A program made the position numbers and the translations under genes. From Cetobacterium sp. 8H (GTDB lineage: Bacteria > Fusobacteriota > Fusobacteriia > Fusobacteriales > Fusobacteriaceae): DNA of 64,000 nt. Location of the stretch: contig NZ_JACHTG010000004.1 in assembly GCF_014250675.1 (NCBI RefSeq), positions 1,489,501 to 1,553,500 on the forward strand, read 5' to 3'. Positions 13,878 to 46,045 of this stretch are shown here, in pieces (the stretch's first letter is position 1; every line of letters begins with the position of its first letter). The notes under the pieces are model-generated. The model made no database searches, had not been told where the DNA came from, and saw nothing but the letters and a program-made list of their open reading frames with translations.

Positions 13878-14885
13878 TTATTTTTCAGCTTTAGCTTTTC
13901 TGATCTCTTCAATTAAGTAAGGTATAGTTTTTCCTAAATCAGTAACAAGTCCTAAATCTGCTGAACCAAATATAGGTGCTGATTTATCCTTATTTACAGC
14001 AATAATATATTCTGATTCTTCCATTCCTGCTAAGTGCTGTATCGCTCCAGAAATTCCAAATGCAAAATATACATCCGGTCTAACTGTTTTTCCAGTCTGC
14101 CCAACTTGTCTATCATGACTTACAATTCCAGCATCAACAAGTGCTCTAGATGCAGATGCAACTCCTCCTAACTCATTAGCTAAAAGCTCCAAGTTATCAA
14201 AACCATTTTGAGCTCCAACTCCTCTTCCACCTGAAACAAGAATCTTAGCTTCAGTTATATCCACTTTAGCTTTAGCTTCTTTTATTATATTTAAAACTTT
14301 AACTTTCATTTTAGAGTGGTCAAAATTAACTTTAAAATTAAGAACAGCTCCTTGTCTATTTTCATCTTTAGATAATCTAGTCATTACTCCAGGTCTAACT
14401 GTGGACATCTGCGGTCTGTGATCAGGACAAATGATTGTAGCCATTAGGTTTCCACCAAAAGCTGGTCTTGTCATCAGTAGCTCTCTATTTTCTCCAATCT
14501 CTAACATTGTACAGTCTGCAGTAAGTCCAGTTTCACATCTTGAAGATATTCTTGGTCCTAAATCTCTTCCTAAAGTTGTCGCTCCGATAAGAACTACCTC
14601 AGGTTTTTTGTTGTTTATTACAGCAGTAAAAGCTTGAGTATAAGCTTCAGTATCATAGATTGATAACTCTTTAGAATCAACTACAACAACCTCATCAGCA
14701 CCATATGCAATCAAGTCCTTTACTAGGTGTTCAACGTTATATCCTAAAAGAACAGCTGTCACTTTTTCACCTAAAGATGCGGCTAACTCTTTTCCTTTTC
14801 CAATCAATTCTAATCCAACGTTTTGTAGTACTCCCTCTCTTTGCTCAGCAAAAACAAGGATCCCTTTATATTCATTTAAATTCAT
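13878..14885 (-). CDS. etfA: electron transfer flavoprotein alpha subunit
   Basis: A 335-residue FAD-binding subunit of ETF, partner of EtfB and butyryl-CoA dehydrogenase. The C-terminal FAD domain shows the family signature GGRGVGAQNGFDNLE, then SRALVDAG, RQVGQTGKTVRPDVYFAFGISGAIQH. In anaerobes Bcd-EtfAB complexes couple crotonyl-CoA reduction to ferredoxin reduction by electron bifurcation; that activity is inferred from family and context. It is last in the row atoD-atoA-thiolase-bcd-etfB-etfA and is followed by a terminator. Confidence 0.95.
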   Translation of the reverse strand: MNLNEYKGILVFAEQREGVLQNVGLELIGKGKELAASLGEKVTAVLLGYNVEHLVKDLIAYGADEVVVVDSKELSIYDTEAYTQAFTAVINNKKPEVVLIGATTLGRDLGPRISSRCETGLTADCTMLEIGENRELLMTRPAFGGNLMATIICPDHRPQMSTVRPGVMTRLSKDENRQGAVLNFKVNFDHSKMKVKVLNIIKEAKAKVDITEAKILVSGGRGVGAQNGFDNLELLANELGGVASASRALVDAGIVSHDRQVGQTGKTVRPDVYFAFGISGAIQHLAGMEESEYIIAVNKDKSAPIFGSADLGLVTDLGKTIPYLIEEIRKAKAEK

Positions 14886-14910
14886 GACATTCTCCTCTTG
14901 TTTTAAAATA

Positions 14911-15696
14911 TTAGATTACAAATTTTTCTTTTAATTTATCAACGATAATTTTTGCTGCCTCTTGAGGGTCAACTTCATAAAGTTGTCCAACCGCTTTAAT
15001 ACCTTTAGTAAACGATTTTTTAACTTTTGTAGGCGATCCGTTTAATCCAAGTTTTGTTTCATCTATATCAGATAATCTATCCACTCCCCAAATTTCAACC
15101 TCTTTATCGAATGCATCTACAATATTTTTAACATTCATGTATCTTGGTTTATTAGCTTCTGCTAAAACAGTCATTAAACAAGGAGTCTCAACTTGTAATA
15201 ACATGTATCCTTCCTCTGTTGATCTTTTAACTTCAAATGTTTTCTTTCCATCAAATTCAATATCTTTTACATATGTAATTTGAGGAACATTTAAAAACTC
15301 AGCAATTTGTGGTCCTACTTGCGCAGTATCTCCATCGATAGCTTGTCTACCCGCAATTATTAAATCATAATCTAATTCACTAAGTGCAGCAGAAATAGCG
15401 TGTGATGTAGCTAAAGTATCCGCTCCTGCAAACTTTCTATCTGTTAAAAGAATAGCTCTATCTACTCCCATAGCAATCGCTTCTCTAAGAGCTGCATCTG
15501 CTTGAAGAGGTCCCATTGTAATTGCTGTTATATGCGCTCCAAATTTATCTTTTAATTTTAATGCTTCTTCTAATCCACCCTTATCATCTGGATTTATTAT
15601 ACTAGGAACTCCATCTCTGATAAGTGTTCCTTTTACAGGATCTAATCTAATCTCTGTAGTATCAGGTACTTGTTTTATACACACAACTATATTCAT
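14911..15696 (-). CDS. etfB: electron transfer flavoprotein beta subunit
   Basis: A 261-residue EtfB. The N-terminus MNIVVCIKQVPDTTEIRLDP and the middle block DLIIAGRQAIDGDTAQVGPQIAEFL are family hallmarks; in bifurcating ETFs this subunit binds the flavin that splits electrons. The ATG at 15696 is chosen because GGGAGG lies 10 bases upstream; a TTG at 15714 would precede that site. It lies between bcd and etfA in the minus-strand butyrate operon. Confidence 0.95.
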   Translation of the reverse strand: MNIVVCIKQVPDTTEIRLDPVKGTLIRDGVPSIINPDDKGGLEEALKLKDKFGAHITAITMGPLQADAALREAIAMGVDRAILLTDRKFAGADTLATSHAISAALSELDYDLIIAGRQAIDGDTAQVGPQIAEFLNVPQITYVKDIEFDGKKTFEVKRSTEEGYMLLQVETPCLMTVLAEANKPRYMNVKNIVDAFDKEVEIWGVDRLSDIDETKLGLNGSPTKVKKSFTKGIKAVGQLYEVDPQEAAKIIVDKLKEKFVI

Positions 15697-35715: not shown

Positions 35716-36204
35716 TTATTCGTATATTGCTCTAAGTTTAATTGTACCAGTATATTTAGCTGGAGTTTGATCTGGACGTGACTGAACATTTGCAGAAACA
35801 TTTAAAGTGTATTTTCCACTAGAATCAAGTGTTATAGATGGATTAGTAGGTAAATACCCACCACCAGTAGGACTACAGTTAAATGCTAAAAGTAGAGTGT
35901 CATCAGTTGACGTAGATTTTAAATCAGAATAATAAGAATAATTTCCTGCACGGTTAATACCAGAGAAAGAAATTTTTACATTTGAATCTGGATGCCCCTC
36001 TATTGAAAAACTTGAAAAGGCTCCAGCACTAGGAGCTCCTGGAAGAACTTTTCCAAAATTAAGATCACCATTAGATATTACAGTTAATGGCTGAATAACT
36101 GTAGCAGTAACGTTCATATTCGCTTCAGAATTTCCACTAGAAATCTCATTTGCAAATGTTGTCATTGCAAAAAGAGTAAATAAAAATAATATATTTTTTT
36201 TCAT
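35716..36204 (-). CDS. DUF4402-type secreted protein under c-di-GMP riboswitch control
   Basis: A 162-residue exported protein. The signal peptide is MKKNILFLFTLFAMTTFAN. The mature part has the beta-rich DUF4402 pattern: VTATVIQPLTVISNGDLNFGKVLPG at the start, FSIEGHPDSNVKISFSG in the middle, and a C-terminal KYTLNVSANV...YTGTIKLRAIYE. Proteins of this type are often pilus- or surface-associated. Control by a c-di-GMP aptamer (36258-36322) with a terminator fits an adhesion or biofilm role; that role is inferred. Confidence 0.8.
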   Translation of the reverse strand: MKKNILFLFTLFAMTTFANEISSGNSEANMNVTATVIQPLTVISNGDLNFGKVLPGAPSAGAFSSFSIEGHPDSNVKISFSGINRAGNYSYYSDLKSTSTDDTLLLAFNCSPTGGGYLPTNPSITLDSSGKYTLNVSANVQSRPDQTPAKYTGTIKLRAIYE

Positions 36205-36220: not shown

Positions 36221-36262
36221 TAAAAAAACCCGTTACATTGCTCTGAATCAGAGTTAATGCAA
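36221..36262 (-). terminator. expression-platform terminator of the c-di-GMP riboswitch
   Basis: On the minus strand TTGCATT..CTCTG pairs with CAGAG..AATGTAA and is followed by GGGTTTTTTT. It begins inside the last aptamer bases (GTTGCA), so aptamer closure and terminator formation may compete. Confidence 0.75.
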
Positions 36263-36322
36263 CTGGCTGTCATTTTAAAGACCCTATAGTTTTGCGTCAT
36301 AAAGTTTCCCTTATTTTGCCTT
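36258..36322 (-). ncRNA. c-di-GMP-I (GEMM) riboswitch aptamer
   Basis: On the minus strand the conserved blocks appear in order: GGCAAA, a short hairpin closed by a GGAAAC tetraloop (GNRA type), GACGCAAAACTATAGGGTC, then ATGACAGCCAGTTGC. These match the clostridial form of the GEMM-I consensus almost fully. It lies between a promoter and a DUF4402 gene. A bidirectional folding and Rfam RF01051 search was not run. Confidence 0.85.
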
Positions 36323-36335
36323 GTATTTTATATAA

Positions 36336-36442: not shown

Positions 36443-36474
36443 TTGAAAAATTATATTTTAAGTGTTAATATAAT
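36443..36474 (+). promoter_or_regulatory. promoter of the TonB receptor operon
   Basis: TTGAAA is followed after 17 bp by TAATAT (or after 20 bp by TATAAT), just upstream of the cobalamin riboswitch. Confidence 0.55.
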
Positions 36475-36496
36475 ATATTGTGTAAGAAAAAAGAAG

Positions 36497-36623
36497 TTTT
36501 AATATGGAAATATGGTTGAATCCCATTACGGCCCCGCCACTGTAAAATTGACGAAAGCACGAAATCTCACTGAGGAAACTTGGGAAGAGGTGTAAGTAGG
36601 ATGAGATGAGTCAGGATACTTTT
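36497..36623 (+). ncRNA. cobalamin riboswitch upstream of the TonB receptor
   Basis: The core blocks GGTTGAATCCC, GCCCCGCCACTGT, GGGAAG, AAGTAGGATGA and the B12 box GAGTCAGGATAC are in the right order. No intrinsic terminator lies between the B12 box and the ATG at 36649, and the SD (GAGGGAGG) follows within 20 bases, so control is probably at translation initiation. It predicts that the receptor is made when cobalamin is scarce. Confidence 0.9.
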
Positions 36624-36648
36624 AAAACATAACTTCGAGGGAGGAAAA

Positions 36649-38709: not shown

Positions 38710-39240
38710 GTGATTAAGTTGAGAAAGATATTAGATAAAGCATATGAAGATATAAATAGATTAAATTTAAAAAAAAGATGTAATCAATTTTCTAATTTAA
38801 ATGGATGTTGCAAATGGGATTATTCACTTATATCTTCTGAAGAAGAGTCTGAAATTAGTGATTTTTTAGAAAAAAATATTGAAATTTATGAAAAAGTAAT
38901 TGAAAATAAAAAAAATGAAAGCACTTGCTATTTTCATGATAAAATAAATAAAAAGTGTTTGATAGAAAAAGTAAGACCAATTTGTTGCAGATATATATCT
39001 TATAAAATTTATGAAAAAGAGGATTGTTTTAAAAGTTGTTCTCCGACAAATCCATGTCAAAAAGAAAAATCTACAGTTATTTCAGTCTCAAAAGAAGATG
39101 TGTATGTAGAAAGTGAGTATATAAAATATATAATTTTAAATAATGAAAAAATCTATTTTATAGATGATAAATCTATTCCAGAGTATGTGGAATATAAAAA
39201 AAATCAAAATATTAAGTTAAGTAAAGTTATAAATAAGTAA
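38710..39240 (+). CDS. Cys-rich protein, YkgJ-like, cotranscribed with the TonB receptor
   Basis: A 176-residue cytoplasmic protein with at least 11 Cys: CNQF..GCCKWD near the N-terminus, then CYFHD, KKCLIEKVRPICCRYI and ENCF/CSPTNPC-like groups. The spacing recalls the YkgJ/CxxCxxCC zinc- or iron-binding family, though the match is loose. It starts with GTG 15 bp after the receptor (SD GAGGAG overlapping the receptor stop), so it belongs to the B12-riboswitch operon. A role in metal or corrinoid handling is inference. No signal peptide. Confidence 0.7.
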   Translation: MIKLRKILDKAYEDINRLNLKKRCNQFSNLNGCCKWDYSLISSEEESEISDFLEKNIEIYEKVIENKKNESTCYFHDKINKKCLIEKVRPICCRYISYKIYEKEDCFKSCSPTNPCQKEKSTVISVSKEDVYVESEYIKYIILNNEKIYFIDDKSIPEYVEYKKNQNIKLSKVINK

Positions 39241-39241
39241 T

Positions 39242-39278
39242 AAAAAAACTGCAGATATGGGAGTCTGCAGTTTTTTTA
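39242..39278. terminator. terminator after the TonB receptor operon
   Basis: AAAAAAACTGCAGA pairs with TCTGCAGTTTTTTT around an 8-base loop; the symmetric tails let it stop transcription from either side. Confidence 0.85.
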
Positions 39279-39330
39279 ATTTGTTTGTTTGTTTTTGTTT
39301 TTTATGAGGAAAATTATTAGTGTTTTGGTA

Positions 39331-39431: not shown

Positions 39432-39480
39432 TATGATTCCTTTATTTTTCTCCCGTGAAAAATAAAAACTAAATTTTAAA

Positions 39481-39620
39481 TAAGTCTCCTGACTTAGCTT
39501 CATCCTACCTCTAACCCTTCCCAGATTTCTCCAGTGGTTGCTAGTTTCGTCCACAATACAGTAGCTTGGGGCTGCGTGGGATTCACACCCACATTCCTTT
39601 ATTAAGCCTTTCGGCATTTA
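39481..39620 (-). ncRNA. orphan cobalamin riboswitch on the minus strand
   Basis: On the minus strand the consensus blocks appear in order: GCCGAAAGGC hairpin, GGGTGTGAATCCC, GCAGCCCCAAGCTACTGT, CCACTGG, CTGGGAAGG, GGTAGGATGAAG and the B12 box AAGTCAGGAGACTT. No gene follows: two A/T hairpins and an intrinsic terminator come next, then the convergent terminator of the TonB operon. The 484-bp gap therefore appears to hold a self-contained cobalamin-responsive RNA of about 290 bases. Confidence 0.85.
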
Positions 39621-39634
39621 AAATATCTAGTATT

Positions 39635-39664
39635 AAAATAACATATTTATACCTATTTTGTCAA
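39635..39664 (-). promoter_or_regulatory. promoter of the orphan riboswitch RNA
   Basis: On the minus strand TTGACA (39664-39659) is followed after 17-18 bp by TTATTT/TATTTT, a moderate -10, a short distance before the aptamer. Confidence 0.55.
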
Positions 39665-41251: not shown

Positions 41252-43492
41252 TTAATCTCTACTTTTTATCCAAATCGGACTTCCCCAAGCTTGGTGCTCA
41301 TCTTTTTGTGTAACTCTTACATAATAAAAATCTTCTCTTTCTTCAACTTTTCTAGTAAAAGTAAAGTCACAAGACCTGTTAGTAGACTCTTTTTTTATTA
41401 TAACTTCATTATTACAAAGCACTTCAACGCTCAGTTCATCTGTTCCTAATACACTTATATTAAATTCAACTTGACTACCTATTTCTTTTTCAATAATTGT
41501 GCCCATTTCATGGTTATCAGCTTTAAAAGATAATAAAATGCCAGCTCCAGATGTTCCATAAGCAAAACGATCATATAGATTATCCCAAACTGTTTCATTA
41601 GCTAATTTATCTACAAAGGAGATTATTATTCCTCCCTCTAAACCATGTTCCATTTGGTGAGAATCACTTCCTGCAATAAATCCTAAATGATATCCTTTTG
41701 CCAAAGCATCTTGAGCACTACAACGCTCAATCTGCATATTGTTTTTAGTATATTTAGAATGATTTCCATAATATTCAAAAGGAGCATGTCTTGAGAAGAT
41801 TTCTACCATTCTTTGTACACTATCATCATGGAATGACCAATCAGTTGCCGCACTTACCAATTTCCAACTAGCTGCTGGATGATGTGGAAAAGCCATAGCT
41901 TTATATTTTTTTATACTAGTAAATAGATGATCTGGAGTTAAACCACCTTCATCTCCTGAACGAAATAACTCTCCTTCAAAGCCTCTATAGTATATATTCT
42001 TATGCCCAAAGTCATAACGATACTCATTCGGTGTCCATTCATAAGCTAAAAGTGTTGCCATTTTTCCGTCTACATTAAACAGTCTCGAAGTTGTACGAAT
42101 CCATTCCCACTCTGACTCACTTAACCAATACGGATAACAGTCATGATCTGTTAATGCAGTAAAATCTAGATTTGCCCACACTTTTGCGATATTGAAGAAT
42201 TGATCAATCTCTCCAACTCCATCGGACATTCCACTTTGACCATGAATATCTCCAAACACTGGGAATTTTTTACCATATCCATTTTTAATCATCCACTCTT
42301 TAGTTTCGCTCTCACTTATACGATCTAGCGATTTTTCTGCTGGAATTGGACGAGTAAATGGATCGCTCACTTTTTCAGCTTCTATATCAATATAGTTTTC
42401 AAATTCATCAGCTTTTAACCATGTATAAATAACTTGTGCATTTCTAATTGGTTTATGACCATTTTCATTTCCGTATTGCCATACTAAATGAATTGTTCCC
42501 TCTTCATCTATAAGTGCTCTTTGATTAGCTGCAAAACTATTTTCATCATAAGTAAAAACAACAGGTTCACTCCACTTATTTGTATAGTCATAGTGTCTCA
42601 CATGAAGTTTTGTTTTTCCCCAAGAGTAAGAAAAAGCCACCTCTCCCTTAGAGTTTTCTGCAATTGCAATATCTTCATACCAATCAATTCCACTTCCAAT
42701 ACAATAAGGTTCTTCTACAACTAATTCGCTATCCTTTAGAAAAACTACTGAACTATTATATGAAAAATCAGACCCATGATTAAAATCATACCAACATACT
42801 AAAACTTTATCTTTCAGCGAAGCAACTAAAGGTTGAGCTGCCCAAGCAGTTTTTGAGGTGCTAACAACTTTTTCATCAGACCAAATACCATCCTTATAAG
42901 CTCTAACTAAAACATCATAATTTTTACCATTGAAAGAATCATAGGCTACATATCCAATCCCATCATCTGTTATTGTATAACTTGGTCTATAAACTTCTTT
43001 TGAAGACGAAACAACCTGAAGATTTTCTATTCCATTTTCTCCAATCATTCCCATTACAACTTCTGCTGAGTTACTATGCTGACGATTCCAAAGAAGGTAT
43101 ACCACTCCATTTTTAGAGTATATATAAGGATAGAAAAGAGCTTCTCCTTCTTCTGCACACTGAATTTTTCCATAAACTCCATTTTCATAACTTCTATAAT
43201 AAATTCCCCATTTTTTATTTCTATTTTCTCCCCAAGCATACCAAACACGGTTTCCATCTGCTATACAAACAGGTTTTAATGCTTCTCCATCTTGAGATAT
43301 AACAACACCACTTACAAATTTATCTTTTTCTTGAGTTAAAACTCCAGCTACAATAACATCATGTCTATCTTTATATTCTTGATAACAAACATAAGTTTGT
43401 CCATCAGCAGTTTGAGTCATACATGGATATTTTCCACTAACTGCAACAATGTCTGTAACCTCTTTTGAGTACTTTTGATTTAATTTATTCAT
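41252..43492 (-). CDS. beta-propeller protein with C-terminal PHP/DUF3604-type metallohydrolase domain
   Basis: A 746-residue protein in two parts. Residues about 1-375 hold repeated short beta-strand units (VWYAWGENRNKKWGIYYRSYENG, VYLLWNRQHSNSAEVVMG, AYDSFNGKNYDVLVRAYKDG), a BNR/sialidase-like propeller. Residues about 400-746 look like a PHP metal-dependent phosphoesterase: FGDIHGQSGMSDG near 412, ALTDHD near 443, PHHPAASW and AGSDSHQ near 607. These His/Asp sets match DUF3604. No signal peptide is visible. It is the last gene of the operon with the GPH transporter and Crp/Fnr regulator, all behind a guanine-type riboswitch. The substrate is unknown. Confidence 0.75.
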   Translation of the reverse strand: MNKLNQKYSKEVTDIVAVSGKYPCMTQTADGQTYVCYQEYKDRHDVIVAGVLTQEKDKFVSGVVISQDGEALKPVCIADGNRVWYAWGENRNKKWGIYYRSYENGVYGKIQCAEEGEALFYPYIYSKNGVVYLLWNRQHSNSAEVVMGMIGENGIENLQVVSSSKEVYRPSYTITDDGIGYVAYDSFNGKNYDVLVRAYKDGIWSDEKVVSTSKTAWAAQPLVASLKDKVLVCWYDFNHGSDFSYNSSVVFLKDSELVVEEPYCIGSGIDWYEDIAIAENSKGEVAFSYSWGKTKLHVRHYDYTNKWSEPVVFTYDENSFAANQRALIDEEGTIHLVWQYGNENGHKPIRNAQVIYTWLKADEFENYIDIEAEKVSDPFTRPIPAEKSLDRISESETKEWMIKNGYGKKFPVFGDIHGQSGMSDGVGEIDQFFNIAKVWANLDFTALTDHDCYPYWLSESEWEWIRTTSRLFNVDGKMATLLAYEWTPNEYRYDFGHKNIYYRGFEGELFRSGDEGGLTPDHLFTSIKKYKAMAFPHHPAASWKLVSAATDWSFHDDSVQRMVEIFSRHAPFEYYGNHSKYTKNNMQIERCSAQDALAKGYHLGFIAGSDSHQMEHGLEGGIIISFVDKLANETVWDNLYDRFAYGTSGAGILLSFKADNHEMGTIIEKEIGSQVEFNISVLGTDELSVEVLCNNEVIIKKESTNRSCDFTFTRKVEEREDFYYVRVTQKDEHQAWGSPIWIKSRD

Positions 43493-43516
43493 TTTATTCC
43501 TCCGTATTTTACTTTG

Positions 43517-44950
43517 TTATGCAATGTTTCTTCTTTTTTCTAGTTCTTTTGAAATATCTTTTGTTTTTTCTGGGGTTATTTCATAAAAATATAACACAAC
43601 TGCCACTAAAACAAAAAGTATTGCAGGTATAATAAAACGTAGTGAAATAATCATGTTAAGAGAACTTTCAACTTGATCTTTATTAGCCACAAATCCTGCT
43701 ATTCCAAGCAAGAAACTTGATAAAAATCCACCAATAGCTATCCCGCATTTTTGTACAAATGTAAATGTTGCAGTGAATAATCCATTTGGCTGCACTCCAT
43801 ACTTCCATTCTGCATAATCTATACAATCTGGTATCATAGCCCAAGGTAATGCACTTGCTATTCCATACATAAAACCAAATAAAATTAATTGAGCAAGAAG
43901 CGAATATATTGAAGTTACATTAGGATTTAACCCCAATAAAATTAAAGGAATCACACAAATAAGAGTTGAATATATAAATGCTTTTTTCTTTCCAAAAATA
44001 CCTTCAATTTTTGGCAAAATCATTGATGCAAGAATACTTGCTCCCATACTAACTGCCATAACTGTTGGAATCCAATTTTGCTTATTTAAAATATATTTAA
44101 AATAGTACATATTTGCTGAATTTACAAGAGTGTTTGCAAACATTGATAGTCCAAAAGCTACTACAAGAACTAAAAGTGGTCTTGTTTTTAAAAGAATTTT
44201 AAAATTGTTTTCTGATTTTCTTTCCTTACTGCTATTTTTTAATTCTTCTGTATTATTAGAGATATCATGAGCTTTAGCTCCATCTGCTGCAATCCATACA
44301 AAAATAGTTGCAGCTCCTCCAACAATTGCTCCAAAGGTTGCCCATCCTTTTTGTCCGCCACCAAACATATTTACCATAGGTAATGCAAAAGTTGAGATAC
44401 ATAATACCGCTACCTGACACATTACACTTTTCCAAGAGATAATAATTGTTCTGGTATGTGAATCTTTAGAAATAACTGGTACTAATGCGAAATATGGTAT
44501 TGAAACAATTGTTATAGCTATTGAATAAAATATAAATACTCCGTAAGCATATATAACCTTCATGCTCTCTGGAATATTTGGTGTATAAAAAAGTAAAAAT
44601 ACAGCAAATCCAAGTACAGGCGCAAAAAATATCATCCAAGGTCTAAATTTTCCCCAACGAGATCTTGTTCTATCTGCTCCCATTCCCATAATGGGGTCTG
44701 TTATAGCATCTACAATTCTTGAAACTAGCATTATTCCTGCCACAGCAAAGGTTGTGATTCCAAAAATATCTGTTAAAAAAAAGTTTAAATACGACATAGT
44801 TAAATTTGTTGCAAGCGTTACCCCTAATCCTCCTAAAGAATACTTAAAAATATCCACCAGTATATTTTTATTTTTAGCCTTTCCTGTTTCAGGCTTTGAT
44901 GAATACCTAGGAATATCTAGTGATATCTCTCCGCTTCTTAATTCCTTCAT
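43517..44950 (-). CDS. GPH-family (MelB/XynB-like) MFS cation symporter
   Basis: A 477-residue, 12-span transporter of the glycoside-pentoside-hexuronide:cation symporter family. The hallmark TM2-3 loop SRIVDAITDPIMGMGADRTRSRWGKFRPW is complete, including the cation-site Asp residues of TM2. These symporters usually move sugars or glycosides. It lies between the Crp/Fnr gene and the PHP-domain gene, so it probably imports the substrate of that hydrolase. Control by a guanine-type riboswitch raises the possibility of a nucleoside or purine conjugate as substrate. RBS GGGAGG. Confidence 0.88.
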   Translation of the reverse strand: MKELRSGEISLDIPRYSSKPETGKAKNKNILVDIFKYSLGGLGVTLATNLTMSYLNFFLTDIFGITTFAVAGIMLVSRIVDAITDPIMGMGADRTRSRWGKFRPWMIFFAPVLGFAVFLLFYTPNIPESMKVIYAYGVFIFYSIAITIVSIPYFALVPVISKDSHTRTIIISWKSVMCQVAVLCISTFALPMVNMFGGGQKGWATFGAIVGGAATIFVWIAADGAKAHDISNNTEELKNSSKERKSENNFKILLKTRPLLVLVVAFGLSMFANTLVNSANMYYFKYILNKQNWIPTVMAVSMGASILASMILPKIEGIFGKKKAFIYSTLICVIPLILLGLNPNVTSIYSLLAQLILFGFMYGIASALPWAMIPDCIDYAEWKYGVQPNGLFTATFTFVQKCGIAIGGFLSSFLLGIAGFVANKDQVESSLNMIISLRFIIPAILFVLVAVVLYFYEITPEKTKDISKELEKRRNIA

Positions 44951-44968
44951 TTAATCCTCCCGTTGAAT

Positions 44969-45679
44969 TTATAATATATTTTTAATTTTTTCTATCTGTA
45001 GATTATTTATAACTATGTTTCCCTTTTCTGTGACAATTAGTGTCTCTTCTTTTAACTCTCTTAATATACGATAAAAAGTTCTAGTACTTATTCCTATATT
45101 ATCCATAATGTAGTCATTTTTTAATCTAATAATTAATTTATCTTCACCTTTATGATTGTTTCTCCAATAATCATTTAACCAGCACAAAAATTGTAATTTT
45201 GCATCATTAATTAACATATACTCTGCACGGCTTGATGTTAAAGACATTTTCTTTAATAAATTTTTTATAATATACAATGACATTTCTGAGTTTTTTTCAA
45301 GACATTCTATAAAATATTCTTTTTCAATATCTATTACTATGCATTTTTCTGTTACATAGTCTTCCGTCATATTTGCATTTTCTTTGTCTAAAACTCTATC
45401 CATTCCAATCCATTCAGGAGCTTCATTTAAAGCTATCAAGTTTCTTTTTCCTATCTTTAGTTCTCGATAATGAAAATATTTTCCAACAATTACATAATGG
45501 ATATATTTTTGTGTTTTATCATATTGATGTATTTTTTCCCCTTCTTTTACAACTCTTATTTGCATATGCTCATTAAGGTGATCTTTTATTAATTTCAAAT
45601 CAGGGTTTGTTTTCCATTTTTCCTCTCTTGTTATATAAATAATCTTAAATAAATTATTACATTTTTCCATATTTGACAT
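44969..45679 (-). CDS. Crp/Fnr-family transcriptional regulator
   Basis: A 236-residue regulator with an N-terminal cyclic-nucleotide-binding-like barrel (residues about 35-135) and a C-terminal winged helix containing NDYIMDNIGISTRTFYRILRELKEETLI. There is no N-terminal Cys cluster of FNR, so it is probably not an iron-sulfur oxygen sensor. The ATG at 45679 sits only 2 bases after GGGGAG; the ATG at 45670 is 11 bases from it, so the true start is uncertain. It is the first gene after the guanine riboswitch and terminator and probably regulates the transporter and hydrolase genes downstream. Confidence 0.82.
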   Translation of the reverse strand: MSNMEKCNNLFKIIYITREEKWKTNPDLKLIKDHLNEHMQIRVVKEGEKIHQYDKTQKYIHYVIVGKYFHYRELKIGKRNLIALNEAPEWIGMDRVLDKENANMTEDYVTEKCIVIDIEKEYFIECLEKNSEMSLYIIKNLLKKMSLTSSRAEYMLINDAKLQFLCWLNDYWRNNHKGEDKLIIRLKNDYIMDNIGISTRTFYRILRELKEETLIVTEKGNIVINNLQIEKIKNIL

Positions 45680-45822
45680 TACTCCCCTTTTTTATGCCAT
45701 ATACTCTAAATATTTTTTATTTACATATTTATATTAAATTTATTTAATACTAATATATTTTTATAAAAAATTCTATGTCACATAGCACAATTTTCTAAAA
45801 TTTTATATTTTTCCTTATAAAT

Positions 45823-45857
45823 AAAAAAAGTCTTTTCTCTATTACAAGAAAAGACTT
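45823..45857 (-). terminator. expression-platform terminator of the purine riboswitch
   Basis: On the minus strand AAGTCTTTTCT pairs with AGAAAAGACTT and a T run follows. Its 5' arm GTCTTTTCTT can pair with GAGAAGAGAC, the 3' strand of aptamer helix P1 and beyond, in ten base pairs including two wobbles. This is the layout of a ligand-OFF switch. Confidence 0.75.
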
Positions 45858-45908
45858 CAATAAATTGAATGAAAATACAAAAATATACTTCAAATATATG
45901 TATGTCTC

Positions 45909-45975
45909 TTCTCATAGGAACCTATTTACGGCAGGTCGTAGAGACATTCATCCATATTATGAATATATATGAGAA
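45909..45975 (-). ncRNA. purine riboswitch, guanine class
   Basis: On the minus strand: P1 TTCTCATA pairs with TATGAGAA; P2 ATTCAT/ATGAAT has the AATATGG loop; J2/3 reads TCTCTAC; P3 ACCT/AGGT has the CCGTAAA loop that kisses L2. The base before the closing UAUG (position 74 in xpt numbering) is C, and positions 47 and 51 are U, which gives guanine/hypoxanthine recognition. Position 48 is C instead of U, a flipped-out base known to vary. The 366-bp gap is otherwise the terminator and leader of the Crp/Fnr gene. Confidence 0.85.
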
Positions 45976-46045
45976 AATTTTTATGTTATTTATTTTAATA
46001 GTATCATTTTTTTACAATTTTGTAAACTTTAATACATATTAATTC

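Follow-up and report, generated by a model that had tools for sequence, protein, structure and literature searches.

In a 64,000-nucleotide stretch of the genome of Cetobacterium sp. 8H (contig NZ_JACHTG010000004.1, positions 1,489,501 to 1,553,500; the whole stretch is called the window here), a guanine-class purine riboswitch precedes an operon of three genes, which encode a Crp-like regulator, a GPH family symporter and a 746-residue propeller-PHP protein. We lean, by a modest degree, towards considering this arrangement a mobile purine-salvage cassette of three genes, with a guanine-switch leader set over the operon's own promoter, whose products would take up and hydrolyze a nucleoside or a nucleoside conjugate. 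Taken alone, the riboswitch is typical of its class; the novelty lies in the operon that it precedes, in the leader shared with another operon and in the second element stacked on it. The elements of the leader are the following.

Positions 45998 to 46026, minus strand: predicted promoter P1, with the hexamers TTTACA-N17-TACTAT and a TG ahead of the -10 (from a consensus scan, whose matches are not enriched over shuffled sequences).
Positions 45909 to 45975, minus strand: purine riboswitch aptamer of the guanine class (C74), 67 nucleotides (RF00167, 68.9 bits).
Positions 45904 to 45913, minus strand: switching strand, formed by the 3' side of the aptamer's P1 and the following bases, which is the 5' arm of the antiterminator (10/10 pairs with 45846-45855).
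Positions 45827 to 45858, minus strand: intrinsic terminator with 13 pairs, 3 of them G-C, and a T7 tail; its 5' arm (45846-45855) is shared with the antiterminator.
Positions 45739 to 45786, minus strand: conserved block of 48 bp, candidate second promoter/operator (48/48 identical to C. somerae p1).
Positions 45773-45785, minus strand: palindrome of 13 bp in the conserved block, CTATGTGACATAG.

The Rfam search gave a purine riboswitch match at 45895-45992 of the minus strand (68.9 bits, E 5.1e-10), well over the gathering score of 37 for the three-way junction aptamer RF00167. Position 74 distinguishes the two main classes, C marking the guanine class and U the adenine class; here J3/1 reads UUCCUAUGAG and position 74 is a C, with CCUAUGAG around it in the window aptamer compared with CACUAUG in the homologues. 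P2 and P3 each present one pair altered on both sides, and 98.2% of the cells are paired among 6 homologues. The 2'-deoxyguanosine class was considered and dropped, as the aptamer keeps both U51 and C74. The genome (2.57 Mb) contains ten purine riboswitches including this one, and two of the ten, aligned by eye, read as adenine class (U74). An adenine-class switch at L032:1054-1151 overlaps the Shine-Dalgarno sequence of an AzgA-like permease, and another at L029:1562-1662 lies upstream of an adenosine deaminase gene.

The expression platform and the P1 of the aptamer are mutually exclusive. The terminator 5' arm at 45855-45846 (GUCUUUUCUU) is complementary, in 10 of 10 positions, to the P1 3' strand and following bases at 45913-45904 (GAGAAGAGAC), and in step-wise folding the antiterminator is the minimum-energy form at 140-148 nucleotides, when the 3' arm of the terminator is still incomplete. 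In plasmid p1 of C. somerae the same 10/10 pairing is intact and the terminator is identical in 37 of 37 positions; the promoter region TTTACAAA..ATGATA is kept in this plasmid and also in three adenine deaminase (ade) leaders. By this standard design, guanine or hypoxanthine is predicted to turn the operon OFF by termination. Transcription from promoter P1 would produce the riboswitch leader. Binding of guanine or hypoxanthine would hold the aptamer's P1 and let the terminator form; when no ligand is bound, the P1 3' strand would pair with the 5' arm of the terminator, so that transcription proceeds into the crp-GPH-PHP genes (ON). A preliminary description of this DNA had placed a guanine-class aptamer at 45909-45975, followed by a terminator able to pair with the P1 3' strand, and had proposed OFF with guanine. 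The aptamer coordinates and the C74 proved exact, the pairing was confirmed by the 10/10 match and the folding, and the OFF response is supported, as a prediction, by the antiterminator/terminator alternative.

The riboswitch and the three genes are found in the same order at three Cetobacterium sites: the window, genome G005 (L035; riboswitch score 74.3 bits) and C. somerae plasmid p1 (L064; 69.7 bits). The relatives of the 746-residue gene are 92% identical in G005, which was the only one among 11 other Cetobacterium genomes searched to carry it, and 88% identical in p1. The flanking genes differ: DUF1232 and MORN genes in the window, a flavoprotein gene and a yhf-like operon in G005, and a transporter gene with RND genes in p1. 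The homology block among the three sites starts at the riboswitch promoter or slightly ahead of it. Since the same switch and genes occur within different flanks, the switch is part of what moves. Cetobacterium are bacteria of the fish gut. The search for further full-length relatives (E <= 1e-40) in 98 Fusobacteriota showed none besides those of the window and G005, and no full-length relatives were found in viral contigs.

The leader apparently was captured from an adenine deaminase operon, as sequence comparison suggests. Over about 172 nucleotides it is 85-88% identical to the leaders of adenine deaminase genes in three congeners (G002, G006 and G009), the enzyme being identified by TIGR01178 with 500 bits. 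The shared stretch comprises the promoter region, the aptamer and the terminator, where the homology stops; from the matched stretch to the gene start there are 16-21 nucleotides in ade and 132-144 in the Crp gene. The direction of the capture, from ade to the cassette, is faintly suggested by the ade leaders, which are closer to the other purine leaders of the genus. A remnant of the ade ribosome-binding site after the terminator was looked for and rejected, as the alignment score was no better than that of shuffles for most pairs (p 0.06-1.0). One of the ade leaders (L088) belongs to a couple of divergent purine riboswitches at G002:C11:87050-87339, placed back to back and less than 100 nucleotides apart.

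Between the terminator and the start codon of the Crp gene there is a gap of 144 nucleotides, and inside it lies a second conserved element that the preliminary description overlooked. This block of 48 bp is identical to C. somerae p1 in 48 of 48 positions, and its flanks are 74% and 69% identical, the four-fold sites 71% and the aptamer 87% (58/67). By a binomial estimate, the chance of 48/48 is 7e-8 at 71% identity and 2e-5 at 80%, values that are optimistic because the block was chosen after seeing the alignment. The consensus scan found in it a promoter-like GTGACA-N18-TATATT, in addition to the palindrome. The block is likely the operon's own promoter and operator, and perhaps a putative operator for the neighboring Crp-like protein. 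The idea of the palindrome as a regulon-wide motif was dropped: the genome has a single exact copy, copies with one mismatch are no commoner than those of a reversed control, and the Lachnospiraceae locus described below presented chance-level matches only.

If the block is a second promoter/operator, the riboswitch adds to the expression of the operon without fully commanding it. A transcript start downstream of the riboswitch has to be reckoned with, due to this conserved promoter/operator-like block between the terminator and the first gene, and it is doubtful that the riboswitch is the sole control of the operon. Carried further, the promoter in the block, under the Crp-like protein, would be the main driver, and riboswitch control would be little or none. 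The block is indeed better conserved than the aptamer (48/48 and 58/67), has promoter-like hexamers and a palindrome, and a terminator stands between the aptamer and the first gene. We regard this as rather improbable, because the aptamer, the switch-strand pairing and the terminator are conserved with paired changes and none of the three sites has lost the leader, which thus appears to be under selection. Another explanation limits the control by the riboswitch to a short leader RNA or a trans-acting RNA, with the operon independent of it. The full terminator after the aptamer and the 144 nucleotides before the start codon fit with this, but the leader matches an ordinary ade leader, in which the gene starts 16-21 nucleotides after the terminator region, and it is linked to the three genes at three sites; we consider this explanation very improbable. 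The model we lean towards is one of two controls in series, in which the leader of an ade operon would have been captured and placed upstream of the operon's own promoter/operator, and the Crp-like protein probably binds the 48-bp block.

The open reading frames behind the leader agree with the preliminary description: they encode a Crp-like protein (45679-44969), a GPH carrier (44950-43517) and a protein of 746 residues (43492-41252).

Positions 44969 to 45679, minus strand: Crp/Fnr-family regulator, 236 residues (PF13545, 28.2 bits against a cut-off of 27).
Positions 43517 to 44950, minus strand: GPH family cation symporter, 477 residues (TIGR00792, 349.7 bits, over the cut-off of 231.35).
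Positions 41252 to 43492, minus strand: propeller-PHP protein of 746 residues, putative CehA/McbA-type metallohydrolase (similarity to NF038032 at residues 414-743, E 3.3e-20).
Positions 42473 to 43453, minus strand: N-terminal lectin/sialidase-type beta-propeller, residues about 14-340 (AlphaFold2 and Foldseek).
Positions 41252 to 42262, minus strand: putative C-terminal PHP-type metallohydrolase domain, residues about 411-746 (NF038032 and conserved residues).

The genes are closely packed, with 18 nucleotides between the Crp and GPH genes and 24 between the GPH gene and that of the 746-residue protein; the Shine-Dalgarno sequence and start of the Crp gene read AAAAGGGGAGTAATG at 45677-45691. 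The regulator has a Crp-type helix-turn-helix domain over the PF13545 cut-off, and its best NCBIfam match is YeiL, with 28.3 bits, far under the cut-off. The symporter lacks the galactoside-binding residues of MelB, all five of which are replaced, and this means that its sugar pocket differs.

The large protein resembles PHP enzymes, as had been proposed, and its match to DUF3604 falls short of the threshold: it reaches 18.8 bits where PF12228 demands 20.4, and NF038032 (CehA/McbA) fits better, also under its cut-off (72.7 against 80 bits). Relatives pass where it fails, those at L035 and L036 for DUF3604 (21.3 and 32.0 bits) and one of 26% identity for NF038032 (85 bits). The candidate metal ligands H417, E485, H537, E564, D610 and H612 are invariant over 7 relatives, and the HxH motif is HxQ (Gln419). 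The search for sequence relatives in the PDB found none. The structure prediction suggested beforehand for the PHP domain was successful for the propeller, modeled by AlphaFold2 with a predicted local distance difference test score (pLDDT) mostly of 70-92 at residues 20-300, whose best Foldseek matches are PLL lectins of Photorhabdus (E 7e-11) and glycan enzymes of the BNR type. Inspection of the sequence by eye showed no signal peptide, and the protein would thus work inside the cell, in the cytosol, on compounds brought in by the symporter. As a separate observation, DUF3604/CehA-like PHP genes of Fusobacteriales (L052-L060) recurrently have sulfatases and phosphotransferase system (PTS) sugar transporters as neighbors, and in some cases NanE or a sulfatase maturase as well; these loci likely represent a sulfated-sugar pathway.

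Two lines of evidence support a purine link for the operon. First, all of the 24 other purine riboswitches checked (9/9 in this genome and 15/15 in G009) precede genes of purine metabolism or transport, assigned by eye from the sequence except for Ade: NCS2 and AzgA-type permeases, purEKL, guaA, guanine and adenine deaminases, adenosine deaminase, a xanthine dehydrogenase operon, S-adenosylhomocysteine (SAH)-deaminase-like enzymes, methylthioadenosine/SAH nucleosidases and a PnrA/BMP lipoprotein. Second, the only close full-length relative of the 746-residue protein found outside the genus, 62% identical, is encoded in a metagenome-assembled genome (MAG) of Lachnospiraceae (L036), where its gene comes last, behind those of a BMP lipoprotein, an ATPase and two permeases, in a nucleoside ABC transporter operon of the PnrA type. 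About 790 genome searches in the family and class of this MAG gave no other full-length relatives, and PHP-domain-only matches in two other genomes. Among PDB entries, the nearest to this BMP protein is Lbp (7x0r, E 5e-48), in whose crystal density guanosine was fitted (PMC9601137). The BMP protein also shares 37% identity with the BMP of G009 that stands behind a riboswitch. Homologues of the Crp-like protein (34%) and of the symporter (42%) adjoin the PHP relative. This operon is an independent pointer to nucleosides. The GPH gene of this locus (L036:13817-15244, minus strand) is apparently frameshifted, with its N-terminus in another frame (14707-15198), which may be an assembly error of the MAG.

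The alternative to be weighed here is that the operon serves for the uptake and degradation of a purine-free sulfated or acylated glycoside; the riboswitch, captured by recombination, would then do no more than couple expression to the purine status of the cell and would have been retained as a general brake responding to nutrients. GPH carriers and lectin propellers deal with sugars, and both the symporter family and the lectin/sialidase-type propeller suggest a carbohydrate. Furthermore, the Lachnospiraceae locus has a sulfatase gene and a radical SAM gene of the sulfatase-maturase type, distant single-domain PHP relatives in Fusobacteriales have PTS, sulfatase and NanE genes as neighbors (names by eye), and the leader is common to ade. 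Other results also count against purine salvage by a riboswitch-controlled cassette: it is rare, present in 2 of the 12 genomes of the genus searched and in p1; no purine riboswitch was found at the Lachnospiraceae locus; the BMP protein of that locus reads GVGANQ in place of the GVDSDQ of guanosine-bound Lbp, so its ligand may differ; and the PHP part was modeled from two usable sequences only, with a pLDDT <50 that makes it a low-confidence domain model. Against the glycoside stand the 24/24 riboswitches on purine genes, the nucleoside transporter operon of the closest relative outside Cetobacterium and the replaced galactoside residues of the symporter, and we find it unlikely. As regards the preliminary description, its proposal of an undescribed purine-related substrate keeps the purine link, and the purine conjugate and its hydrolysis are plausible proposals, with a glycoside fitting equally. 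In the same way, control by the riboswitch holds as a prediction, and sole control is doubtful, given the candidate second promoter in the 48-bp block.

The simplest common ground would be a sugar-bearing purine compound, plausibly a nucleoside or a nucleoside conjugate. In the purine-salvage model, the GPH symporter would import such a compound by cation symport; in the cytosol, the propeller-PHP enzyme would bind its sugar part and hydrolyze an ester, amide or phosphodiester bond to give a salvageable purine. That this amounts to an undescribed salvage route, with a GPH carrier importing a purine nucleoside conjugate, a lectin-fused PHP metallohydrolase cleaving it, and a cassette that moves between Cetobacterium replicons with an ade-captured guanine riboswitch stacked on a protein-controlled promoter, is a possibility that we entertain tentatively. 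Our literature search returned nothing on such riboswitches in Cetobacterium, on guanine riboswitches associated with GPH symporters or on YeiL with nucleosides, and no functional study of DUF3604/CehA-type enzymes. If the route is true, purine salvage would gain GPH as a transporter family and the CehA/McbA-like propeller-PHP proteins as an enzyme family, and there would be a direct handle on DUF3604/CehA-type enzymes. The leader is, in addition, a readable case of a riboswitch leader common to two operons, with donor and recipient both present in one genus.

Other RNA elements were observed in the window. A cobalamin riboswitch at 39462-39636 (minus strand, 73.5 bits) is followed on its strand by a terminator-like hairpin near 39250-39285, with no open reading frame of at least 80 residues in between, and is directed towards the end of the convergent gene 38710-39240. 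It lies downstream of a TonB-receptor-like gene, itself equipped with a cobalamin riboswitch, and similar DNA (about 80%), unannotated, is present on two C. somerae plasmids; a B12-controlled noncoding or antisense RNA is possible. A c-di-GMP-I riboswitch at 36255-36330 (minus strand, 61.3 bits), just upstream of a secreted-looking gene of 162 residues (35716-36204), is back to back with a cobalamin riboswitch at 36468-36638.

Compared with known systems, the riboswitch shares with the transcription-terminating xpt-pbuX riboswitch of Bacillus subtilis (RF00167) the aptamer core, the loops, C74, the switching among P1, antiterminator and terminator, and the OFF prediction; unlike it, the Cetobacterium switch heads a Crp-GPH-PHP operon with no known purine gene and has a second conserved element after the terminator. 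The ade-AzgA riboswitch leaders of Cetobacterium (L088, L093 and L102) are homologous from promoter to terminator, but in them the gene starts after 16-21 nucleotides, whereas the cassette has 132-144 including the 48-bp block. With MelB (GPH, TIGR00792) the symporter shares, by alignment, the cation-site residues Asp55 and Asp59, and differs in Lys18 to Val, Asp19 to Thr, Asp124 to Ser, Trp128 to Phe and Arg149 to Lys; in MelB, Lys18, Asp19, Asp124, Trp128 and Arg149 are the galactoside contacts (PMC8437787). The nucleoside ABC operons of the PnrA/BMP type contain the PHP relative as their last gene in Lachnospiraceae, whereas the linked transporter of Cetobacterium is a GPH carrier and not an ABC system. 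Finally, the 746-residue protein presents significant similarity at residues 414-743, with a conserved set of His, Asp and Glu, to CehA/McbA (NF038032; carbaryl hydrolase, PHP superfamily) and to DUF3604, but it scores below both curated cut-offs, has Gln419 in place of the second His of HxH, and is fused to a lectin-type propeller.

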